Shown: positions 3,336 through 13,296 of the stretch, piece by piece
Numbering within the stretch: position 1 is the first letter of the stretch
Layout: each line of letters begins with the position of its first letter
NCBI RefSeq assembly: GCF_002001205.1
Contig: NZ_MUNZ01000085.1
Span: 62,001 to 126,000, forward strand
Reading direction: 5' to 3'
Source: Hydrogenophaga sp. A37
Lineage (GTDB): Bacteria; Pseudomonadota; Gammaproteobacteria; Burkholderiales; Burkholderiaceae_C
Length of the DNA: 64,000 nt
Program-made: the position numbers and the translations under genes
Notes under the pieces: model-generated
What the model was told of the DNA's origin: nothing
The model's input: only the letters and a program-made list of their open reading frames with translations
Database searches by the model: none

Positions 3336-5045
3336 TCAGCGGATGGGCTGCAGCAACAACAGCCAGTCGCTTTCACCGGCGGCGTTCGTGCGATCAGGTT
3401 GAACGTGCATCTGGCGACCGCGAACCTCGAACTGAACGGCGTGTTCATCGAAATTGGTGGGATCGATCCAGATCGCTTTCACCGGCTTTTTGAACGGGGC
3501 CAGATCGATGCTGAACGACTGGTCTGACACCGTGTAGGCGATGGCCATCGATTGTTCCCTGGCGATGCCCATGGCCACGGGGGCTTGACGCGACTGAAGC
3601 CACCCCAGTTTGTGCACGACGCGCCTCAGACGCGGTCGATGCTGCAACCAGCCTTCCAATCGGCCGATCTGAACCGGTTGCGGCTCGACCTCATGCCAAG
3701 GGAGCGCCTCCAGGAATTGTTTGGCCAGGCCCATTTGTCTGGCGCCGGGAAGGTGCATCGCCTGAACCCAGGGCATGTTGCCCCAGCAGGATCCTGACGG
3801 AGAAGGTCCGAACGGCTGCTCAACCGCATTGACCTGCCAGATGCCATTGGCGCCGTAGGTGTGCCCGGCCAGACCGCTGTTGAGCGCATGCGCCCAGAAG
3901 GCTTCGCGTGCGTTCCGCGCCGTCACGGTGGGGCCGATCTCCAGACCCTCGTAGCGGGCCTCCGCGCTGATCACCGGCATGGCCGGCTGCGCGCACCACC
4001 CTTGCCACGCGCGCAGGGCGTGGTGTGGCGTGGGCGACCCGTGACCTGTCTGCTGCATCTCAAAGTCGAGCAACGTGATGTCCGTGACCGAATCACGCGC
4101 GCTCGTGACGGGATGGGTGGTGATCAGGCGGCCAAAACCGTTGATGCTGCGCATGTGCGCCATCACCTGACTCCAGTCCGATGCCAGCTGGATCCGTGAA
4201 GCCGCCTTCTGGGCATGGTTCTCGAGGTACCACGGCATGGTCTGCTCACCGGCTGCGGCCCAGACCACGGGCAGCGCACCCCAGCGCGCGATCAGGTAGC
4301 GCCAGTGGCGTTGCATATTGTCCAGACCGATCATGGGCAGGTAATAACCCCATGCCCCCAGGATGCAAGGCACCAACCCTTGCTCGACCAGATGGAAGAT
4401 CCGCTGATCGGCTTCATCAAAAAAGCGGGGATTGATCCGGCTCAGGTCCTCTTCCCAGCAGAAGCCACTGGAACTCAAGCCTCTTTCGTCAAACAGCGGC
4501 ATGTCGGGATACAGACCCGCGACCAGCTGGATTACGTTGAAGCCGGTCTCCTTCCTGTTTCGCGCCAGCGCCTTGAAGTCCTCTGGCCAGGACAGGCGCC
4601 CGCACAGCCCCATCCACCAGGTGTCGCCCAGCCAGAAGAACGGCGTTCCGTCCGCGTGACAGAAATGGCGCCGATCCGCCGATACCTGTATGCCACCGTG
4701 TTTGTAGAGCGGGTTGTCGCCGCGATACGGTTCGATGTGCACTTCACCGACCTGACCATGCAAGGAGGGGTTGCCTTCGTCGCTGCACAAGGTTCGAAAT
4801 GCATGAGCGCCTGTTTCAGACGAGGCATACCGGACACACCAGGTGGCTTCACCGGCCCAGAAGGCAGGAACCACCACGGTTGTCCCACCGGGTGCCGTGA
4901 AGGCCACGTCCAGCACGACGTCTTTGAAGGGCTCCGCATAGGCGGTCGTCGACTGCAAGCGGATCTCAGTCACCTGGTGCTGGTGTGCCTTGAAAGGGGT
5001 TGTTTTCAAATCAGGCGGCTCTCGGGTTGAAGGGTGAACAGTCAC
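3336..5045 (-). CDS. DUF5060/DUF4038 glycoside hydrolase (GH140-like)
   Basis: This 569-residue protein has three parts: an N-terminal beta domain of the DUF5060 type (about 24-110), a TIM-barrel glycosidase domain of the DUF4038 type (about 118-470) and a C-terminal beta domain (about 480-565). The barrel shows PFFWLGDTWW at the first strand, VVWAAAGEQ with Glu267 as candidate acid/base, and SAEARYEG with Glu362 and Glu366 near the candidate nucleophile. Characterised DUF4038 members include apiosidases of family GH140. There is no signal peptide, so it should act in the cytoplasm on a small imported glycoside. It is the last gene of the minus-strand cluster, 36 bases after the PQQ-type dehydrogenase gene. 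The substrate is unknown; apiose is only one possibility. Confidence 0.8.
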   Translation of the reverse strand: MTVHPSTREPPDLKTTPFKAHQHQVTEIRLQSTTAYAEPFKDVVLDVAFTAPGGTTVVVPAFWAGEATWCVRYASSETGAHAFRTLCSDEGNPSLHGQVGEVHIEPYRGDNPLYKHGGIQVSADRRHFCHADGTPFFWLGDTWWMGLCGRLSWPEDFKALARNRKETGFNVIQLVAGLYPDMPLFDERGLSSSGFCWEEDLSRINPRFFDEADQRIFHLVEQGLVPCILGAWGYYLPMIGLDNMQRHWRYLIARWGALPVVWAAAGEQTMPWYLENHAQKAASRIQLASDWSQVMAHMRSINGFGRLITTHPVTSARDSVTDITLLDFEMQQTGHGSPTPHHALRAWQGWCAQPAMPVISAEARYEGLEIGPTVTARNAREAFWAHALNSGLAGHTYGANGIWQVNAVEQPFGPSPSGSCWGNMPWVQAMHLPGARQMGLAKQFLEALPWHEVEPQPVQIGRLEGWLQHRPRLRRVVHKLGWLQSRQAPVAMGIAREQSMAIAYTVSDQSFSIDLAPFKKPVKAIWIDPTNFDEHAVQFEVRGRQMHVQPDRTNAAGESDWLLLLQPIR

Positions 5046-5081
5046 ACGACTCTACCGGGGCGCCGAGGGGCAAGCTTGGGT

Positions 5082-6401
5082 TCAGGGGTTCGAGCCGGCG
5101 CCGGTGACGCGCCAGATCACGTCGCCCACGTCGTCGGCCACCAGCAATGAATGCGCATCCAGCCCGATCACCACACCCACCGGTCGACCGTACGACACCG
5201 ATTCGTCGGGCGCCAGGAAGCCCCAGAGGATGTCGCGCACAGGGCCTGCGGGTCGGCCGTCGGCGAACGGGACGAACACCACCCGGTAGCCGCTGAGCGT
5301 GCTGCGGTTCCACGAGCCATGCTGCCCGATGACCATGCCGTCGACGTCGAAACCCGGCAGCGTGCCGGCCGGCATCCAGCACAGGCCCAGCGATGCGGTG
5401 TGCCCGCCCAGCGCGTAGTCGGGGGTCAGTGCGGTCGCCACTTTCGCCGCGTCCTGCGGCACACGGTCGTCGACCGTCTGGCCCCAGTAGCAGAAAGGCC
5501 AGCCATAGAAGCCGCCCTCGGTGACCGCCGTCAGGTAATCGGGTGGTGTCTCGTCTCCCAGGCCGTCGCGCTCATTGACCACCGTCCACAGGCGCCGGGT
5601 GACCGGCTCCCAGGCCATGCCCACGGGGTTGCGCAGGCCGCTGGCAAAGACGCGGCAATGGTTCGTCTCCAAGTCCAATTCATAGATGCAGGCCCTGCCC
5701 TCCTCGACCTCCAGACCGCCTTCGGCGATGTTGGTGAGCGAACCGACACCGACATAGAGCCGCCGGCCGTCCGGGCTGGGCAGCAGGCTGCGCGTCCAGT
5801 GGCCGTCAGGTTTGAAAGTGGTCAGGCGCCGCGCCGGCGCGCTGATCGAGGTGTCGCCCTCGGCATAGGCAAAGGCCATGACACCGTCGGTGTTGCCCAC
5901 ATAAAAGGTGTCGCCCAGCAGCGCCATGCCAAAGGGTTGACGCTGGTTCTCCAGCAAAACATGCCGCTCTTCGGCCACGCCGTCCCGGTCGGCGTCGCGC
6001 AGCAGCGTGATCCGGTTGGGGCTCTCGCCAAAGGCCGCCGCACGGCGCATGGTGGCGACCATCGCATGGTCGAACAAGGTCTGGGGTTTTCCGCCAGACT
6101 GCAACGCCTCGGCAACCGTGACGTCGCCGTTGGGCAGCACCAGCATCCAGCGCGGATGCTTCAACCCGGACGCAAAGGCGTTGACCTTCAGACCGGGGGC
6201 CGCCGTCGGCAACTGGCCTGGCGCCCAGCCGCGCGCGGTGGGCATCTTCAAGGTCGGAATGCGCCCCTGCGGGCGGCCCGCCGGGATCTGCGGAGCGTCC
6301 CCCACCGCCGGGCTTTGCGCACCGCCTTGAAGACTGCGCCACTTCACGGCACCGGCCCCCACCAGGGCCACCACACGCGCCAACACATCGTAGAAACCCA
6401 T
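5082..6401 (-). CDS. PQQ-dependent sugar (sorbosone-type) dehydrogenase
   Basis: This 439-residue beta-propeller protein belongs to the soluble aldose/sorbosone dehydrogenase family. Motifs include LKHPRWMLVLPNGDVTVAEA near residue 90, the blade repeats RNPVGMAWEPVTRRLWTVVNERDGLGDETPPDYL, and the C-terminal LLVADDVGDVIWRVTG. The family oxidises aldoses or sorbosone with PQQ, usually in the periplasm. The N-terminus (MGFYDVLARVVALVGAGAV) could act as a short membrane or signal segment. I chose ATG 6401 because GAGGAA lies just upstream; the open frame extends 77 codons further but has no good site there. It is separated from the hydrolase gene by 142 bases, the largest gap in the series, so an internal promoter is possible. 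No PQQ biosynthesis gene is in view. Confidence 0.82.
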   Translation of the reverse strand: MGFYDVLARVVALVGAGAVKWRSLQGGAQSPAVGDAPQIPAGRPQGRIPTLKMPTARGWAPGQLPTAAPGLKVNAFASGLKHPRWMLVLPNGDVTVAEALQSGGKPQTLFDHAMVATMRRAAAFGESPNRITLLRDADRDGVAEERHVLLENQRQPFGMALLGDTFYVGNTDGVMAFAYAEGDTSISAPARRLTTFKPDGHWTRSLLPSPDGRRLYVGVGSLTNIAEGGLEVEEGRACIYELDLETNHCRVFASGLRNPVGMAWEPVTRRLWTVVNERDGLGDETPPDYLTAVTEGGFYGWPFCYWGQTVDDRVPQDAAKVATALTPDYALGGHTASLGLCWMPAGTLPGFDVDGMVIGQHGSWNRSTLSGYRVVFVPFADGRPAGPVRDILWGFLAPDESVSYGRPVGVVIGLDAHSLLVADDVGDVIWRVTGAGSNP

Positions 6402-6543
6402 GGCATCGTTCCTCGTCTGGACTTGAAGGGCTGGGCAAAGGCGTCCACCCCGGTCGTTGCCATTGTCGGGCTCCAGACAGCCCAGCGGCGCCACCTCACC
6501 GATCATGTCTCCGGCATGTGGCCCACCATCGCGATCATTGAGT

Positions 6544-7407
6544 TCAGGATGACGGCAGATCGACACCCGTGTCGGCCAGGAAGTCCAGCGCGATCCTGCT
6601 GAAATCCGCCGGCCGCTCCACCATGGGCGCATGCCCGCAGGGCGCCAGCACCACCGGCTTAGCGTGAGGCACCAGCCGCATCACCGTGTCGAGGTGGCTC
6701 ACGGGCAGAAACCGGTCCTGCCGGCCCCAGACCACGCAGGTGGGCGCCTGAATGCGCCGTGCCTTGGCGTGCGAGTCGTCGATGACCGATGGGCGAAAGC
6801 CGCCCAGGTGGATCAGGCCTCGCAGGGTTTTCAGGAACGCCGCCTGTGCGCCGGGTTGCCGGGCCAGCGCGACTTTCTCCCGCACCATCTCTGGCGTGAT
6901 GCACGCCGGATCGGCCACCGCCGTTCGCCACAGCCGGGCGGTGCCAAACGCGGTGGGCCTGGTGAGCAGCTCGCCCAGCACCGGCAGCGAGGCCAGCCTG
7001 AAATCGAACAGGGTCGGGTTGGCCAAGGCCGCCGGTGCCGAGAGCACCAGCGAGCGCACCCGAGCGGGCGCGACCGCAGCGCACTCCATGGCCACCCGCG
7101 CGCCCAGCGAGTTGCCCACCAGCGACGCCCGATCCAGCCCCATGGCGTCCATGAACCCCAGCGTGAACAGGGCCAAAGCCGCCACGTCGTAGCTCGCATC
7201 GGCGGGCTTGGCCGTGAGCCCACACCCCAGCAGGTCCAGCGCATACACCCGGTGCCGGGTGGCCAGGGCGTGGATGCTGTGTTCCCACTCCAGCACCGAG
7301 CAGCCGATGCCGTGGATGCACAACAGCGCGGGCCCTTCCCGGCCCACCTGCCAGTACCGGACTGTGTGGCCCTCAACGGTGGTGAACTGGTCACCGGGTC
7401 GGTTCAT
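6544..7407 (-). CDS. Alpha/beta-fold hydrolase
   Basis: This 287-residue cytoplasmic hydrolase has a complete catalytic triad: Ser100 in GNSLG, Asp231 in WGRQDRFLP and His259 in CGHAPM. The oxyanion region is LLCIHGIGC at about 28-36. The architecture matches carbon-carbon-bond (MhpC-like) hydrolases and esterases or lactonases of this superfamily. Its ATG overlaps the stop of the GMC gene by four bases (ATGA), so the two are probably translationally coupled. Within the cluster it could open a lactone or ester produced by the dehydrogenases, but this is inference from position only. An epoxide hydrolase or haloalkane dehalogenase is less likely, because the nucleophile is Ser and not Asp. Confidence 0.85.
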   Translation of the reverse strand: MNRPGDQFTTVEGHTVRYWQVGREGPALLCIHGIGCSVLEWEHSIHALATRHRVYALDLLGCGLTAKPADASYDVAALALFTLGFMDAMGLDRASLVGNSLGARVAMECAAVAPARVRSLVLSAPAALANPTLFDFRLASLPVLGELLTRPTAFGTARLWRTAVADPACITPEMVREKVALARQPGAQAAFLKTLRGLIHLGGFRPSVIDDSHAKARRIQAPTCVVWGRQDRFLPVSHLDTVMRLVPHAKPVVLAPCGHAPMVERPADFSRIALDFLADTGVDLPSS

Positions 7408-8963
7408 GCCCTTGCCTTGATCATCTGCTCGCACACGTAGTGCGCCAACGCGTACACCGTCTCCGACGGGTTGTAGCCGATAGAGGTGGGCAGCAGGCTG
7501 GCGTCGACCACGTAGAGGTTTTTCACGTCGTGCGTCTCGCCGTGGGGGTTGACCACCGTCTTCTTCGGGTCGCGCCCCATGCGGCAGGTGCCCTGTGGGT
7601 GGAACGAGGTGTACTTGTAGCGGGCGGGTTCGTTCTTCAGCCCGCCAATCACCTTGTCCACGTCTTCCACGCGGTCGATGCTGGAGATGTGGGTGGTGGG
7701 CAGGAGCAGCCGCTGAGCGCCCGAGGCGAACAGGATCTTGGCCGTGGCGATCAGCCCCTTTTTCATGGATTCGAAGTCCTGGTCGTCCACGAAGTAGCTG
7801 ATGTCTTTCTTGCCATCCTTCCAGCTCACCTGGCCCACGTTCTGGTCGTGAATGAGGCTGATCAACCGGATGGTGTTCTTGTAGCCCGACATGTAGGCCA
7901 CATACGGCTTGCCCGTGCCTGGCTCGGCCTGGAAGCTGGCTTCCACCGGTTCCTGGATGGCGTTGAGCAGGATGTAGCCGCCTTTGTCGGGCAGGGTGTT
8001 CTGGTCCATGTACAGCGAGTGGGTGGCGCCGTGGAAGTCGCGCACCTCGTGCGGAAACTCGGCGGTGACCGACATGGACGGGTGGCAGGCGAAGTTCTTG
8101 CCCACCTGCCCGCTGCTGTTGGCCAGCCCGCTTTTGAGCAGCAGCAAGGGTGTCTGGATGGGGCCGGCAGCCATCACCACCAAGGGCGCATCCACCTGGA
8201 TGTCTGCTTTCTTCAGGCCCGTGGCCGGGTCGATGATCTCGCCCTTGACACCCACCGCTTTGCCATCTTTCGACAGCACTTCGGTGACGCGGGTGTCCGA
8301 GTGGATGACGGCGCCGTGCGCCACCGCCCACGGCAGGTAGGTCACCAGCATGGACTGCTTGCGGTCGGTGGTGCAGCCGCTGAAGCAAAAGCCCGTCATG
8401 GCGCAGTCTTTGATGTTGCGCCGGGCCTTGCCCTGGGTGTAGCCCAGCTTGTCCATGCCCTGGCCGATCAGCAGCGCGCCTGGGCTGGTTTCCTGCGGCC
8501 CCACGGTCTTGATGTGCAGGTTGCGCTCCACCTTTTCAAAGATGGGCTTCATCACTGCCGGGGTGAGGTTGGTCAGGCCGAATTCCTTGGCCCACAACTT
8601 CAGGTAGTAGTCGGGCGTGCGAAAGCACAGCGCGGCGTTGACCACCGTGGAGCCGCCCACGCAGGCCCCCTGCAGCACCGAGATGTCGCCCGCCGAATTG
8701 GTCTGCCCGCCATGGTCCTGGTAGAGCGTGCCCATGGCCACGGCCAACATTTCGGGGAACTTGTCGGAGGTGATGTACGGGCCCGCCTCCAGCACCACCA
8801 CCTTCTTGCCCGCCTTGGCCAGCTCGTAAGCGGCAATGGCGCCGCCCGCCCCCGAGCCCACCACCACGGCGTCGGCCTTCAGGTGGATCTGACTGTCTTT
8901 GATATCGGCGGCCTGGGTGACCTTGAGGCCTTGCTTTTCAACTTTGATCGCGTGATTTTTCAT
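7404..8963 (-). CDS. GMC-family FAD-dependent dehydrogenase
   Basis: This 519-residue flavoprotein of the glucose-methanol-choline family oxidises an alcohol or sugar hydroxyl. An FAD-binding Rossmann motif, VVVGSGAGGAIAAYELAKAG, is at 33-52. Later come SFHPQGTCRMG and the C-terminal VVDASLLPTSIGYNPSETVYALA with the NP active-site region. Cys187, Cys193 and Cys197 (DCAMTGFCFSGC) have the C-x5-C-x3-C spacing that I associate with the 3Fe-4S cluster of multi-subunit FAD-dependent glucose dehydrogenases. The preceding gene encodes a subunit-3-type partner with a TAT signal, and GMC itself has no signal, so a hitch-hiker export of the complex is plausible. The start has GGAGACAAC directly upstream. 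No cytochrome subunit gene is nearby. Confidence 0.88.
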   Translation of the reverse strand: MKNHAIKVEKQGLKVTQAADIKDSQIHLKADAVVVGSGAGGAIAAYELAKAGKKVVVLEAGPYITSDKFPEMLAVAMGTLYQDHGGQTNSAGDISVLQGACVGGSTVVNAALCFRTPDYYLKLWAKEFGLTNLTPAVMKPIFEKVERNLHIKTVGPQETSPGALLIGQGMDKLGYTQGKARRNIKDCAMTGFCFSGCTTDRKQSMLVTYLPWAVAHGAVIHSDTRVTEVLSKDGKAVGVKGEIIDPATGLKKADIQVDAPLVVMAAGPIQTPLLLLKSGLANSSGQVGKNFACHPSMSVTAEFPHEVRDFHGATHSLYMDQNTLPDKGGYILLNAIQEPVEASFQAEPGTGKPYVAYMSGYKNTIRLISLIHDQNVGQVSWKDGKKDISYFVDDQDFESMKKGLIATAKILFASGAQRLLLPTTHISSIDRVEDVDKVIGGLKNEPARYKYTSFHPQGTCRMGRDPKKTVVNPHGETHDVKNLYVVDASLLPTSIGYNPSETVYALAHYVCEQMIKARA

Positions 8964-8984: not shown

Positions 8985-9569
8985 TCAGCGCGTGGGCAGC
9001 GGGGCGTTGCCGAGGGACTTCAGACCGTTGCGCTTCGATATCGGGCCGTCGTATTCCAGCGGCGCCCAGGACGCGGGGTTGGCCCAGTACGACAGCTGCA
9101 CCAGCTTTTTCAGGCCCGAGGCCAGCGCGCGGTGCGGCACTTCTTTGGCGTTGCCCCAGGCGTCCAGAAAGGCGGTGGCCGTGGCGTCGTCCAGCGCCGT
9201 GAAGCGCTTGCCGTGCTGCGCCACCGGGCCTTCGTTGAAGTACTGCAGCCCGCCCTTGAGGCCCGCCAGCACATGGGGCGGCATGGTGCCCAGCAGGGCC
9301 GCCTCCAGCGTGCCCAGCAGCACCTCGGGTGTCCAGGGCGCGAGCGGGCTGCCGCCCACGGGCAGCACCACCTCGGCCACGCGGCGGAAGATGGCGGCCT
9401 CGGCGGCGTTGATGCTCTTGAGCGCCGGGGCCTGGGCCTGCGCCACCGACGCGGCGCCACCGGCGGCCACGCTCACGGCGGCGCCGGCAAAGGCCATGAA
9501 GTCGCGGCGCGACAGGCGCCCGACGATCTGCAGGGCCTGGTTCAAAGGGGATGGGGTGTCCAGATGCAT
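8985..9569 (-). CDS. Gluconate 2-dehydrogenase subunit 3-like protein (TAT-exported)
   Basis: This 194-residue protein begins with a twin-arginine signal, RLSRRDFMAFAGAAVSVAAGGAASVAQA, with cleavage probably near residue 45. The mature region resembles the subunit-3 (gamma) family of gluconate and FAD-glucose dehydrogenases, with NAAEAAIFRRVAEVVLPVGGSPLAPW at about 54-79. Subunit-3 proteins are small chaperone-like partners that carry the folded flavoprotein through the TAT pathway. It lies 21 bases before the GMC gene and 28 bases after the aldehyde dehydrogenase gene, on the same strand, which fits one transcript. An in-frame later Met is possible but would remove part of the TAT region. 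The role is inferred from family and context. Confidence 0.82.
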   Translation of the reverse strand: MHLDTPSPLNQALQIVGRLSRRDFMAFAGAAVSVAAGGAASVAQAQAPALKSINAAEAAIFRRVAEVVLPVGGSPLAPWTPEVLLGTLEAALLGTMPPHVLAGLKGGLQYFNEGPVAQHGKRFTALDDATATAFLDAWGNAKEVPHRALASGLKKLVQLSYWANPASWAPLEYDGPISKRNGLKSLGNAPLPTR

Positions 9570-9597: not shown

Positions 9598-11058
9598 TCA
9601 GAAGGGGTAGACGATGGGTTGCTCCATCACGCTGACCCACTGGGTCTGGGTGAACTCGTCCAGGTTGGCCGGGCCGCCAAAGCGCCCACCGTTGCCCGAG
9701 GCGCCCATGCCACCAAAGGGCACGTGGAACTCGTTGTTCACGGTCTGGTCGTTGACGTGGATCATTCCGGTGTGCAGCCGGTTGGCCACGGCCATGGCGC
9801 GCGACACGTTGGCGCTGTGCACGGCGGCCGCCAGCCCGTAGGGCGAGGCATTGACCAGTTCGACGGCCTCGTCTTCGGTGTCGAACACCGTGATGGGGGC
9901 CACGGGGCCAAAGATCTCGTCGGCGAACGCCGGCATGTCGGCGGTCACGCCCGACAGCACCGTGGGCTGGAAGAACAGGCCTTCGTGCGTGCCGCCGGTC
10001 AGCAGCCGGGCGCCCTGGGCCACGCTGCGGTCCACGATGTCCTGCACGCGGTTGCACTGTTTGGCGTTGATGATCGGGCCCAGGTGCGCGGGGCCGGCGT
10101 GCGGGTCGCCCACGTAGAGCGCCTTCGCCCGGTGGACCAACTTGTCTGCGTAGGCTTCGGCCACCTTGCGCTGCACCAGGTGCCGCCCGGCCTGCATGCA
10201 GATCTGCCCCTGGTGCAGAAAGGCACCCCAGGCGCCGTTGGAAGCGGCGGCGTCCAGGTTGGCGTCGTCCAGCACGATGAGGGCGTTGTTGCCGCCCAGC
10301 TCCAGCGCCACCTTTTTCAGCAGCCCGCCACAGGTGGCGCCGATGCTCTTGCCCACCGCCGTCGAGCCGGTGAAAGAAATCATGGTCACGTCCGGGTGGC
10401 GCACCACCGCGTCCCCCGTTTCGGGGCCGCCCGGCAACACGTGCAGCACGCCGTCGGGCAGGCCCGCGTCGGCAAACACCTGGGCAATCAGGTGGCCGCC
10501 GGTCACCGCCGTCTGGGCGTCGGGCTTGAGCAGCACGGCATTGCCCAGTGCCAGCGCCGGTGCCACCGAGCGCATGGCCAGCAGCAGCGGGAAATTCCAC
10601 GGCGCGATCACCCCCACCGTGCCCATGGGCACACGGCGCCAGAGGTTGGTGCGCCCCGGCATGGACGATGGGAACAGCTGCCCGTTGGCCTGCATGGGCA
10701 GCGCGGCGGCCATCAGCATCTGCTCGTAGGTGGCGTGCAGTTCCCATTCGGCCTTGGGGCCGATGGAGCCGCATTCGCGGATGTTCCAGATGTTGATATC
10801 AGCGGCGCGCTCTTTCAGCAAACGCGCGGCCTCGCGCATCACCGCGGCGCGCTGGTCAAAGGGCGTGGCGGCCCAGGCGGCGCGGGCGGCCTTGGCACTG
10901 GCGGCGGCGCGGCTCACGTCGGCCGGATTGGCGATGCCGGTGCGTTCCAGGGACTGGCCGGTGGCGGGTTCCCGCACGTCCTGCACACCGCCAGCGGCGT
11001 CTGTCCATCCGTTGCTGAAAATCTTGCCTGACCAAACGGCAGGGCTGCTTGCACTCAT
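9598..11058 (-). CDS. NAD(P)-dependent aldehyde dehydrogenase (benzaldehyde dehydrogenase-like)
   Basis: This 486-residue protein has all aldehyde dehydrogenase signatures: APWNFPLLL with Asn155 region, LKPDAQTAVTGG for cofactor binding, FTGSTAVGK, Glu253 in LELGGNN and catalytic Cys287 in QGQICMQ. WRRVPMGTVGVIAPWNF and the overall pattern are nearest to the XylC-type aromatic aldehyde dehydrogenases I know, though aliphatic or semialdehyde substrates are not excluded. ATG 11058 has GGAGACAACCC upstream and begins MSASSPAVWSGKIF. It is the first gene of the minus-strand cluster, 37 bases downstream of the start point predicted by the sigma-54 promoter at 11106-11121. It probably oxidises the aldehyde made by the GMC enzyme. 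Confidence 0.88.
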   Translation of the reverse strand: MSASSPAVWSGKIFSNGWTDAAGGVQDVREPATGQSLERTGIANPADVSRAAASAKAARAAWAATPFDQRAAVMREAARLLKERAADINIWNIRECGSIGPKAEWELHATYEQMLMAAALPMQANGQLFPSSMPGRTNLWRRVPMGTVGVIAPWNFPLLLAMRSVAPALALGNAVLLKPDAQTAVTGGHLIAQVFADAGLPDGVLHVLPGGPETGDAVVRHPDVTMISFTGSTAVGKSIGATCGGLLKKVALELGGNNALIVLDDANLDAAASNGAWGAFLHQGQICMQAGRHLVQRKVAEAYADKLVHRAKALYVGDPHAGPAHLGPIINAKQCNRVQDIVDRSVAQGARLLTGGTHEGLFFQPTVLSGVTADMPAFADEIFGPVAPITVFDTEDEAVELVNASPYGLAAAVHSANVSRAMAVANRLHTGMIHVNDQTVNNEFHVPFGGMGASGNGGRFGGPANLDEFTQTQWVSVMEQPIVYPF

Positions 11059-11105
11059 GGGTTGTCTCCGTCTATGTGTTTGTGGTGGGGCACCAGCGCT
11101 GTTTC

Positions 11106-11121
11106 TGCAAGCGCTGTGCCA
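11106..11121 (-). promoter_or_regulatory. Sigma-54 (-24/-12) promoter for the oxidation cluster
   Basis: Read on the minus strand the site is TGGCACAGCGCTTGCA, an exact match to the sigma-54 consensus (TGGCAC, five bases, TTGCA). The invariant GG and GC are ten bases apart. The start point should be near 11095, giving a 37-base leader before the aldehyde dehydrogenase ATG at 11058. The divergent gene encodes a sigma-54 activator, which makes function very likely. Confidence 0.9.
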
Positions 11122-11226
11122 AAACGGCAATCCAGTGCATGCGCGCCCTCTTTCTGCGGGTTTGTCCGGGGTTTTGTGCCCCTCGGTAGCCGTCCACCGG
11201 GCCCATTCCCACGCAGCCCCGGCGGA

Positions 11227-11286
11227 GGCGTCTCACGGAGACGCCCATTTCGTCTCAACCCGGGACGATCCGTCTCAACGCCGGGA
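11227..11286. promoter_or_regulatory. Three phased CGTCTC repeats, candidate activator sites (UAS)
   Basis: The first site is a perfect inverted repeat, GGCGTCTC-ACG-GAGACGCC (11227-11245). Two partial copies follow: CGTCTCAACCCGGGACG at 11251 and CGTCTCAACGCCGGGA at 11271. CGTCTC begins at 11229, 11251 and 11271, so spacings are 22 and 20 bases, close to two helical turns. They lie about 105-165 bases upstream of the -24 element, the usual distance for sigma-54 enhancer sites. Binding by the adjacent AcoR-like protein is inference. Confidence 0.7.
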
Positions 11287-11311
11287 AAACCCGCATAAGT
11301 CGCCCCTCAAC

Positions 11312-11327
11312 ATGCACTAAAGTGCAT
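11312..11327. promoter_or_regulatory. Perfect 16-base palindrome upstream of the activator gene
   Basis: ATGCACT-AA-AGTGCAT is a perfect inverted repeat ending 22 bases before the activator ATG at 11350. It could be an operator for the activator gene or a hairpin in its leader. No ribosome binding site stronger than weak purines is visible between it and the ATG. Confidence 0.45.
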
Positions 11328-11349
11328 CATCCCCCATCCGGTGCCGCCC

Positions 11350-13296
11350 ATGAACCACCCAGCCCCCACACTGCCGAGTCCACGCATCGACTACCGGCCC
11401 GAGCGCATCTGGGAAGCCCGCCAGCACTATTTCAACGAGGGCATGCTGCCCGACGGGCTGCTGGAGCAACCCTTGCTGCGGTCGTGGGAGCGTTGCCGGC
11501 AGTCGGGCCGCGCGCCCCAGGAACATGTGGTGTTCGACCCGGTGGAGCGCAGCCACCTCAGCGCCCTGCTGGAGCGCGAACACCGCTTGCTGCAGGCCGC
11601 CCGCCCCGAACTCGATGTGCTGGCCGGGCGCGTGTCTGAGGTGGGTTACGCCGTGTTGCTGACTGACACCGTGGGCCAGGTGCTGGCGGTGGCCGGCGCG
11701 CTGGACCGCCACTGCCAGCCCATGCGCCAGGCCTTTCGCCCCGGAGTGGACGTGTCGGAAGCCGCCATCGGCACCAGCGCCATGGCCGTGGCGCTGGCCG
11801 AGCAGCGCACGGTGCGCGTGCTGGGCCCCGAGCACTACTTCGCCAACAACCAGATCTTTCATTGCTGCGCCGCGCCGGTGTTCGACCCGCGCGGGCGCCT
11901 GCTGGGCACGGTGGACGTGACCCGCGACGCGCCGCAGTTGGCAACCGGCGTGATGGGACTCACCCACCAGTGCGCCCAGCAGATCGAACACCGGCTGTTC
12001 GACGCCCTGCCCGTCTTTCTGAGGATCGAGCTGGCCGACACCCAGGGCGCCGCCCTCGCCTTCGACCGCGACGGCGTGCTGCTCGCCGCCAACGGCGCCG
12101 CCCGCCACCTGTTCGACATGCCGGTGGTCCGCGAGGGCCGCAGCTTTGAAGACCTGTTCGAAGGGCGCTTTGACACCTGGGCCTCCCGGGCCAGCCGCCA
12201 GCCCGCCGGCCGGCTCCCCCTGCAACTGCATGGCGGGGTGCGGCTGCAAGGCGTCGCCCTGCCCCTGGCCCAGCGCGCGATGGCCCGTGCAGTGGCCAGC
12301 CCGGTGGCCCCCGTCGTCAGCGCGCACCGCACCGCCAACCCCACCGAGGCCACCACCCCGCTGCCGCCCGAGCACCCCGTGGCGCTGCGCGCGCTCGAAG
12401 CGGGCCTGCCCGTGCTGGTGACCGGCGAAACCGGCGCCGGCAAAGAGGTGGCCGCGCGCGCCCTGCACCAGGCCAGCCAGCGCGCACAGGCGCCATTCCT
12501 GGCCATCAACTGCGGCGCGCTCACCCCCGAGCTGATCGCGTCGGAACTGTTCGGCCATGTGGAAGGCGCCTTCACCGGGGCCGTGCGCGGCGGCAGCATC
12601 GGCAAGTTCGAAGCGGCGCGGGGCGGCACGGTGTTCCTGGACGAAATCGGCGACATGCCCTTGCCACTGCAGGTGGCCCTGCTGCGCGTGCTGGACCGGG
12701 GCGAGGTGCTTCCCGTGGGCGCCACGCAACCCCGCGCGGTGGACGTGCGGGTGCTCTGCGCCACGCACCGCAACCTGCAGGCGCTGGTGGCCGAAGGGCG
12801 CTTTCGCGAAGACCTGTACTACCGCATCAGCGGCTTCGTGCTGGCGGTGCCCCCGCTGCGCGAACGCGACGATTTCGACGCCATCGTGGACAGCCTGTGC
12901 CACCGCATCGGCGCCGACGCGTCCCGCCTGGGCGGCCCATTGCGGGCCCAGCTGCGCCAGCGCCCCTGGCCCGGCAACGTGCGCCAGTTGCAGCACGCGC
13001 TGACGCTGGCTTTTGCGGTGGCCGAACCCCTGCGCCCCCTGGCGCTGGACGACTTTGCTCAGGCGCCGTCAGCGGCTGCAGCAACCCCGGTATCACCCTG
13101 GCCCTCGCAGCCAATCGACTCGAAGGCCGGCCTGTCGTTCCACGACGCCCAACGCAAGGCCATAGCGACCGCCTTGCAACAGACGCGGGGCAACGTCACC
13201 GCGGCGGCGGCCTTGCTGGGCATGGGGCGCGCCACGCTGTACCGCCGGCTCAAGTCGGACCCGGAGCTGGCCGCCAGCGGCGATCCGCGCGGGTAG
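11350..13296 (+). CDS. Sigma-54-dependent activator, AcoR-like
   Basis: This 648-residue regulator has an N-terminal AcoR-type region (LLRSWERC at about 40), a GAF-type sensor (about 85-215), a sigma-54 AAA+ domain (about 335-570) and a C-terminal Fis-type helix-turn-helix ([21 protein letters not shown]). Walker A is GETGAGKE near 359 and the sigma-54 contact loop GAFTGA is at 406-411. [14 protein letters not shown] is Walker B and [11 protein letters not shown] follows. There is no receiver domain, so a small molecule probably signals through the GAF domain. AcoR relatives respond to acetoin or alcohols; the effector here is unknown. Start: ATG 11350 is preferred over an in-frame GTG at 11341. 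It diverges from the cluster it probably activates. Confidence 0.92.

Follow-up and report, generated by a model that had tools for sequence, protein, structure and literature searches.

A 64,000-nucleotide stretch of the Hydrogenophaga sp. A37 genome (assembly GCF_002001205.1, contig NZ_MUNZ01000085.1, positions 62,001 to 126,000 of the forward strand; hereafter, the window) contains a 291-base-pair (bp) gap between an aldehyde dehydrogenase gene on the minus strand and a divergent activator gene on the plus strand. Within this gap lie an exact sigma-54 promoter, a group of CGTCTC-type candidate activator sites, and two putative operators of the BoxR/BzdR type, designated O1 and O2, which together probably form an inducible switch for catabolic genes that takes two inputs, one from sigma-54 and its activator and the second from the BoxR-type operators. 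An original prediction made from the sequence had recognized the promoter, the CGTCTC sites, and the divergent activator, and had read them as a complete switch for a six-gene cluster. Its observation is confirmed as a whole, and its interpretation is partly supported: promoter, upstream sites, and divergent activator are conserved in related genera, and the genome has two rpoN genes (L119 and L120; two PF04552 matches above the cut-off), but the switch is not complete without the two BoxR-type operators that occupy the same 291 bp.

Putative BoxR-type operators in the intergenic region

BoxR and BzdR are described in PMC4424350 as repressors of benzoate genes that respond to benzoyl-CoA. Operators of the form TGCA-N6-TGCA appear in PMC6678401, and a BoxR/BzdR motif, ATGCACTATAGTGCAT, in PMC6449761. 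A conserved sequence in the window, GCACTAAAGTGCATC, occurs at no more than one mismatch at two places in the genome, the O2 position and upstream of an orphan boxB gene. O2 is the best match to the published motif in the 5.55-Mb genome, where three sites lie within two mismatches and the reversed control pattern yields none. The second of these sites is situated in the boxD/boxR interval of a complete box cluster (bclA, boxD, boxR, boxC, boxB, boxA), and the third precedes a transporter gene (see below). The weaker O1 also exceeds chance expectation at its place in the window (shuffle P = 0.0007). BoxR itself is encoded in the genome by a single BoxR-like gene at E <= 1e-40, whose product scores 435.6 bits against the PRK08154 cut-off of 204 and matches PF01202 and PF01381. 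An NtrC site was considered for ATGCACTAAAGTGCAT and rejected, since the BoxR consensus fits at 15 of 16 positions and the spacer of the NtrC dyad is longer.

Upstream regions were compared for 14 loci, the window included, that bear this activator or a relative with 41 to 95% identity; the closest named relative is that of H. taeniospiralis CCUG 15921 (95%), a species that has the same operon. This footprinting omitted L040, L052, and L127/L033, in which at most 27 bp of upstream sequence are available, as well as the other relatives (L044 onward, <40% identity, except L049 and L052). L031 begins 223 bp upstream, with the -24 region outside its sequence, and L039, which lacks the divergent aldehyde dehydrogenase gene, was excluded from the k-mer and -24 tests. 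In 8 of the 14 loci, counting the window, the region preceding the activator gene has an O2-type match scoring 13/16 or more, and BoxR is present in each of these 8 genomes; G344 and G092, with no BoxR match at E 1e-40, lack O2. Of the 11 loci with a -24/-12 element, 7 have an O1-type match (10 to 13/16) at a distance of 3 to 4 bp on the upstream side of -24, with shuffle P values from <0.001 to 0.018 and scores of 11/16 in the window versus 13/16 in L041. The two operators co-occur in 7 of these 11 loci, and the remaining 4 have neither. In Hydrogenophaga, the activator sites are followed by O2 and then by the activator gene, and in L041, L126, and L031 O2 comes first and the CGTCTC-type sites stand between it and the activator gene, indicating that O2 was kept through rearrangement. 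A degenerate O2 (11/16) remains in L039 (5830-6000).

Among 264,527 bases from 16 sources, 11 sites reach at least 13/16 to the consensus, of which 8 are upstream of activator genes (7 O2 and 1 O1), 2 are in the boxR/boxD divergon, 1 is at an orphan boxB, and none is found at any other place. At 12/16 there are three more matches: another copy next to the orphan boxB, one in the interval from boxR to boxC, and one at a further place in L123. Upstream regions of boxR served as the positive control, and 14 of the 16 attain 13/16.

Sigma-54 promoter and candidate activator sites

The exact consensus claimed for positions 11121 to 11106 of the minus strand is the sole exact TGGCAC-N5-TTGCW match in the window. 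Genome-wide, this pattern has 20 exact matches, versus 4 for the reversed control. A divergent promoter region is available for 12 loci. In 11 of these, a -24/-12 element scoring 8/10 or better is directed toward the divergent gene (exact in 7), and L124 has no recognizable element. A 16-base element identical to that in the window occurs at L149 1501-1516 (G000:C122:48822-48837), upstream of an open reading frame that by reading resembles a cation/proton antiporter.

All three CGTCTC copies reported earlier, starting at 11229, 11251, and 11271, are present on the plus strand, together with a fourth on the minus strand at 11238-11243. The three plus-strand starts are 22 and 20 bp apart, close to two helical turns, and the sites are located 108 to 155 bp upstream of the -24 box. 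The window contains 17 copies of CGTCTC, compared with 35 expected by shuffling, and 4 of the 17 fall inside 48 bp. Site A is the genome's single exact CGTCTC-N3..5-GAGACG; the reversed control pattern also yields one match, so the uniqueness of site A is by itself no proof. An unbiased k-mer count beside related activators ranks GAGAC/GTCTC first of 490 5-mers across the intergenic regions of nine non-Hydrogenophaga loci, 8 of which contain it (31 copies versus 2.94 expected; P = 2e-21); start-codon ends were trimmed for this count, which the ribosome-binding site GGAGAC otherwise inflates.

The spacing of the dyad differs among genera. Exact GTCTC-N5-GAGAC dyads number seven, in 6 of the 14 loci (twice in L031), and one more N5 dyad, in L041, has a single mismatch. 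The N3 dyad is exact only in three Hydrogenophaga loci (the window, L128, and L122), with one mismatch in L121. The sites first described are thus real and the first is indeed a perfect inverted repeat, but its 3-bp spacer is a genus variant of a commoner form, CGTCTC-N5-GAGACG. Such a 17-bp, two-armed form suits a Fis-type dimer. Copies of GTCTC/GAGAC occur in other arrangements in L126, and the upstream regions of L049, L043, and L039 contain no GTCTC-N5/N3-GAGAC-type dyad; L043 has a CGTCGC-type dyad instead. In L049, from a Ramlibacter relative, a dyad of the same 17-bp form, GATCCC-N5-GGGATC, occupies positions 5940-5956. Differences in the recognition helix were rejected as its cause, the helices being nearly identical.

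Among the four Hydrogenophaga, invariant positions amount to 15/16 in the promoter, 15/16 in O1, 14/16 in O2, 15/17 in site B, 6/6 in site C, and 12/15 in site A, as opposed to 58/88 in the stretch from O1 to the activator sites and 27/35 from site C to O2. A terminator called at 11227-11245, across site A, was discarded: the scan shows no excess over shuffles (5 versus 6.4 expected), and the arms fit the activator-site motif. Nor is there a genome-wide excess of CGTCTC-N5-GAGACG that would denote a regulon, with 146 places at up to two mismatches versus 283 for the control.

Regulatory model and alternatives

From these elements, their conservation, and the presence of BoxR and the whole box cluster in the genome, we infer binding, ligand, substrate, and direction of control as follows. 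The enzymes of the minus-strand four-gene operon would oxidize an aromatic alcohol or aldehyde, perhaps set free from an ester, and the resulting aromatic acid would feed into the benzoyl-CoA box pathway. The operon promoter would be read by sigma-54 RNA polymerase and activated by the divergent GAF/AAA+/Fis protein bound to the CGTCTC-type dyads. When benzoyl-CoA is absent, BoxR would repress the activator gene through O2, and perhaps also the sigma-54 promoter through O1; once benzoyl-CoA is formed, BoxR would be released, and the activator with its own ligand would fire the operon. The least secure part of the model is what O1 does at the -24 box. A stricter version, which falls somewhat short of probable, is an AND gate in which BoxR at O1 would block sigma-54 polymerase at -24 and at O2 would block the activator gene, such that both ligand and benzoyl-CoA would be needed; BoxR would then control a sigma-54 activator outside the box cluster.

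An ordinary single-input sigma-54 switch, with TGCA palindromes unrelated to BoxR, would work with a promoter, upstream sites, and an activator, which L123, L125, and L042 have without O1 and O2. We consider it improbable, in that no other place in the genome fits the independently published consensus as well as O2 does, no site of at least 13/16 occurs elsewhere in the 264,527 bases, and O1 and O2 co-occur though the place of O2 relative to the activator sites varies. The palindromes might instead be read by another regulator of BoxR-like specificity, either a BoxR paralogue or a different XRE protein, as some genomes have more than one BoxR-like gene (two in G849 and three in G850); the genome of the window has one (E <= 1e-40), with the same motif in its own promoter region, which makes this reading quite improbable. 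It is very improbable that the CGTCTC sites are operators of a different protein, for example one controlling the activator gene, with the activator binding elsewhere. In Hydrogenophaga the activator gene is closer to the sites than the -24 box is, and the dyads of L041 and L031 start some 59 to 85 bp before the activator ATG, but the sites track this activator across genera, and their two-armed form is as expected for its Fis-type domain. An operon acting on a non-benzylic substrate, linked to BoxR only through shared aromatic growth conditions, is unlikely. The GMC and PF00171 families are broad, and the aldehyde dehydrogenase is below the cut-off in all 25 of 42 NCBIfam matches listed; against this, its nearest solved relatives, 4-hydroxybenzaldehyde and benzaldehyde dehydrogenases, lead the PDB match list, and BoxR operators suit a product that becomes benzoyl-CoA.

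The two-input switch has several observations to its disadvantage. O2 is missing from L125, L042, L043, and L039 though their genomes have BoxR, so that it is present in 8 of 12 BoxR-positive and 0 of 2 BoxR-negative loci. O1 is weak (10 to 11/16) in 6 of 7 loci, and because the four Hydrogenophaga are closely related, support for O1 with O2 comes from about four independent lineages; moreover, several of the 16 sources behind the 264,527 bases were chosen for holding such sites. As for the activator sites, L049 has no CGTCTC dyad despite its nearly identical recognition helix, L039 lacks both GTCTC and the divergent aldehyde dehydrogenase gene with an activator 76% identical, and the invariance of site A in Hydrogenophaga (12/15) is no better than that of some plain stretches (27/35 at 11277-11311). 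The substrate, finally, is assigned by sequence similarity alone.

Each class of component is already known, and the comparison with described systems shows where this locus departs from them. Like AcoR/DhaR-type activators, the protein has their domain order and GAFTGA loop and faces a divergent catabolic operon with a -24/-12 promoter; unlike them, it has its own site, CGTCTC-N5-GAGACG, and shares the promoter region with BoxR-type operators. In Acinetobacter ADP1, areABC encodes an esterase, a benzyl alcohol dehydrogenase, and a benzaldehyde dehydrogenase under the sigma-54 activator AreR. The same logic of hydrolase, alcohol dehydrogenase, and aldehyde dehydrogenase under a sigma-54 activator recurs here, but with a GMC/small-subunit enzyme, the box pathway, and BoxR-type operators. 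The likeness to the BoxR/BzdR regulon consists of the TGCA-N6-TGCA palindrome, a candidate second, weaker site, and BoxR with a box cluster in the same genome. In the available part of a 32-species study, BoxR-regulated genes lie within divergent boxR/box clusters (PMC6449761); the site in the window is instead on a different contig from the box cluster, at a sigma-54 promoter and an activator gene. The literature searched, thin on subscription journals, yielded no BoxR-type operator beside a sigma-54 activator gene, nor any title recognized as dealing with this activator, the Hydrogenophaga operon, or BoxR at a sigma-54 promoter. Under the model, the BoxR regulon would reach past the box cluster, taking in a sigma-54 promoter together with the gene of its activator. 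An apparently unstudied activator gains a candidate DNA site, a conserved operon, and a probable pathway for the operon's product. If the model is correct, an upper aromatic pathway would be coupled to a metabolite consumed by the lower pathway, and the switch might serve as a two-input biosensor.

Activator and operon genes

TABLE 1 Features of the intergenic region and the flanking genes (positions in the window)
Feature	Positions	Strand	Remarks
Apiosidase-like, possible extra operon gene	3336..5045	-	PF13204
Glucose/sorbosone dehydrogenase-like, possible extra operon gene	5082..6401	-	PF07995 on longer open reading frame 5082-6632; start near 6401 by reading
Alpha/beta hydrolase	6544..7407	-	PF00561; ATG overlaps GMC stop codon (ATGA, by reading)
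GMC flavoprotein dehydrogenase-type large subunit	7404..8963	-	PF00732, PF05199
Small subunit, gluconate 2-dehydrogenase subunit 3-like	8985..9569	-	PF13618 E 3.9e-4, 21.2 bits, under 23.4 cut-off
Aldehyde dehydrogenase, first operon gene	9598..11058	-	PF00171
Sigma-54 -24/-12 element	11106..11121	-	TGGCACAGCGCTTGCA; only exact match in window; predicted transcript start near 11095
O1, weaker putative BoxR-type operator	11125..11140		CGGCAATCCAGTGCAT; 11/16; 3 bp upstream of -24 element
Candidate activator site A	11229..11243		CGTCTC-ACG-GAGACG; perfect dyad, 3-bp spacer
Candidate activator site B	11251..11267		CGTCTC-AACCC-GGGACG; 5-bp spacer, one mismatch; perfect in L121
Candidate activator half-site C	11271..11276	+	CGTCTC; 6/6 positions invariant in four Hydrogenophaga
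O2, putative BoxR/BzdR-type operator	11312..11327		ATGCACTAAAGTGCAT; 15/16 to ATGCACTATAGTGCAT; 22 bp before activator ATG
Sigma-54-dependent activator, 648 aa	11350..13296	+	GAF (PF01590), AAA+ sigma-54 interaction (PF00158), Fis helix-turn-helix (PF02954)

The divergent gene, whose start codon is most likely the ATG at 11350, encodes the sigma-54 AAA+ activator with intact GAFTGA that had been predicted. Its AAA+ domain (PF00158, E 1.5e-61) carries GAFTGA from residue 406, a motif found as GAFTGA or GAFTGS in 19 of 20 aligned proteins and as GAYTGA in L031. The domain is flanked by a C-terminal Fis-type helix-turn-helix (PF02954, E 1.5e-12) and an N-terminal GAF domain (PF01590, 25.5 bits versus a cut-off of 22.4), and the N-terminus also matches the DhaR structure (4lrx; residues 39-223, E 1.2e-8). 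The label "AcoR-like" is apt for this architecture but does not extend to family: among the 25 of 26 NCBIfam matches listed, most of them covering the AAA+/helix-turn-helix part only, none reaches its cut-off (DhaR, 249.9 bits versus 551; PrpR, 263.3 versus 499.2), and the AcoR model is absent, for which reason likeness to AcoR/DhaR is claimed and not membership. A simple scan yielded no sigma-70 promoter for the activator gene. A plasmid collection gave no DNA match, and six of its records have proteins with 33 to 36% identity.

The operon most likely oxidizes an aromatic alcohol or aldehyde and feeds the benzoyl-CoA (box) pathway. Four of the six genes in the proposed cluster, those for the aldehyde dehydrogenase, small subunit, GMC protein, and alpha/beta hydrolase, form a core conserved in three other Hydrogenophaga, the hydrolase being 86 to 93% identical across three Hydrogenophaga loci. 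The small subunit has a twin-arginine-like start, as read from the sequence. The last two genes, sorbosone dehydrogenase-like and apiosidase-like (3336-6401), were sought in 17 loci, including those of three Hydrogenophaga relatives, without a match. No terminator is predicted in the 142-bp gap that precedes them, so this strain may make a single six-gene transcript. A gene for a Phenol_MetA_deg outer-membrane protein sits within the operon of L126, and L124 has a similar protein (by reading).

Other BoxR-type sites

The third genomic site within two mismatches of the BoxR/BzdR motif (L186 1501-1516; G000:C147:9770-9785) is about 150 bp before a Peripla_BP_6 ABC binding-protein gene, a position that would be consistent with the putative benzoate ABC transporters assigned to known BoxR regulons (PMC6449761). 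By reading, a second TGCA-like copy directly follows it. The orphan boxB paralogue, 65% identical to canonical boxB and with a product confirmed as BoxB, has a BoxR-type site that precedes the ATG by about 22 bp (L161 1500-1514; G000:C150:9069-9083). Of 21 boxB loci, 7 have a site, all of the orphan class and with 13 to 15/16 to a related pattern, TGCACTAAANTGCATC; the other 14 score 12 or less. Orphan boxB genes with similar sites are found in the genomes of six relatives.

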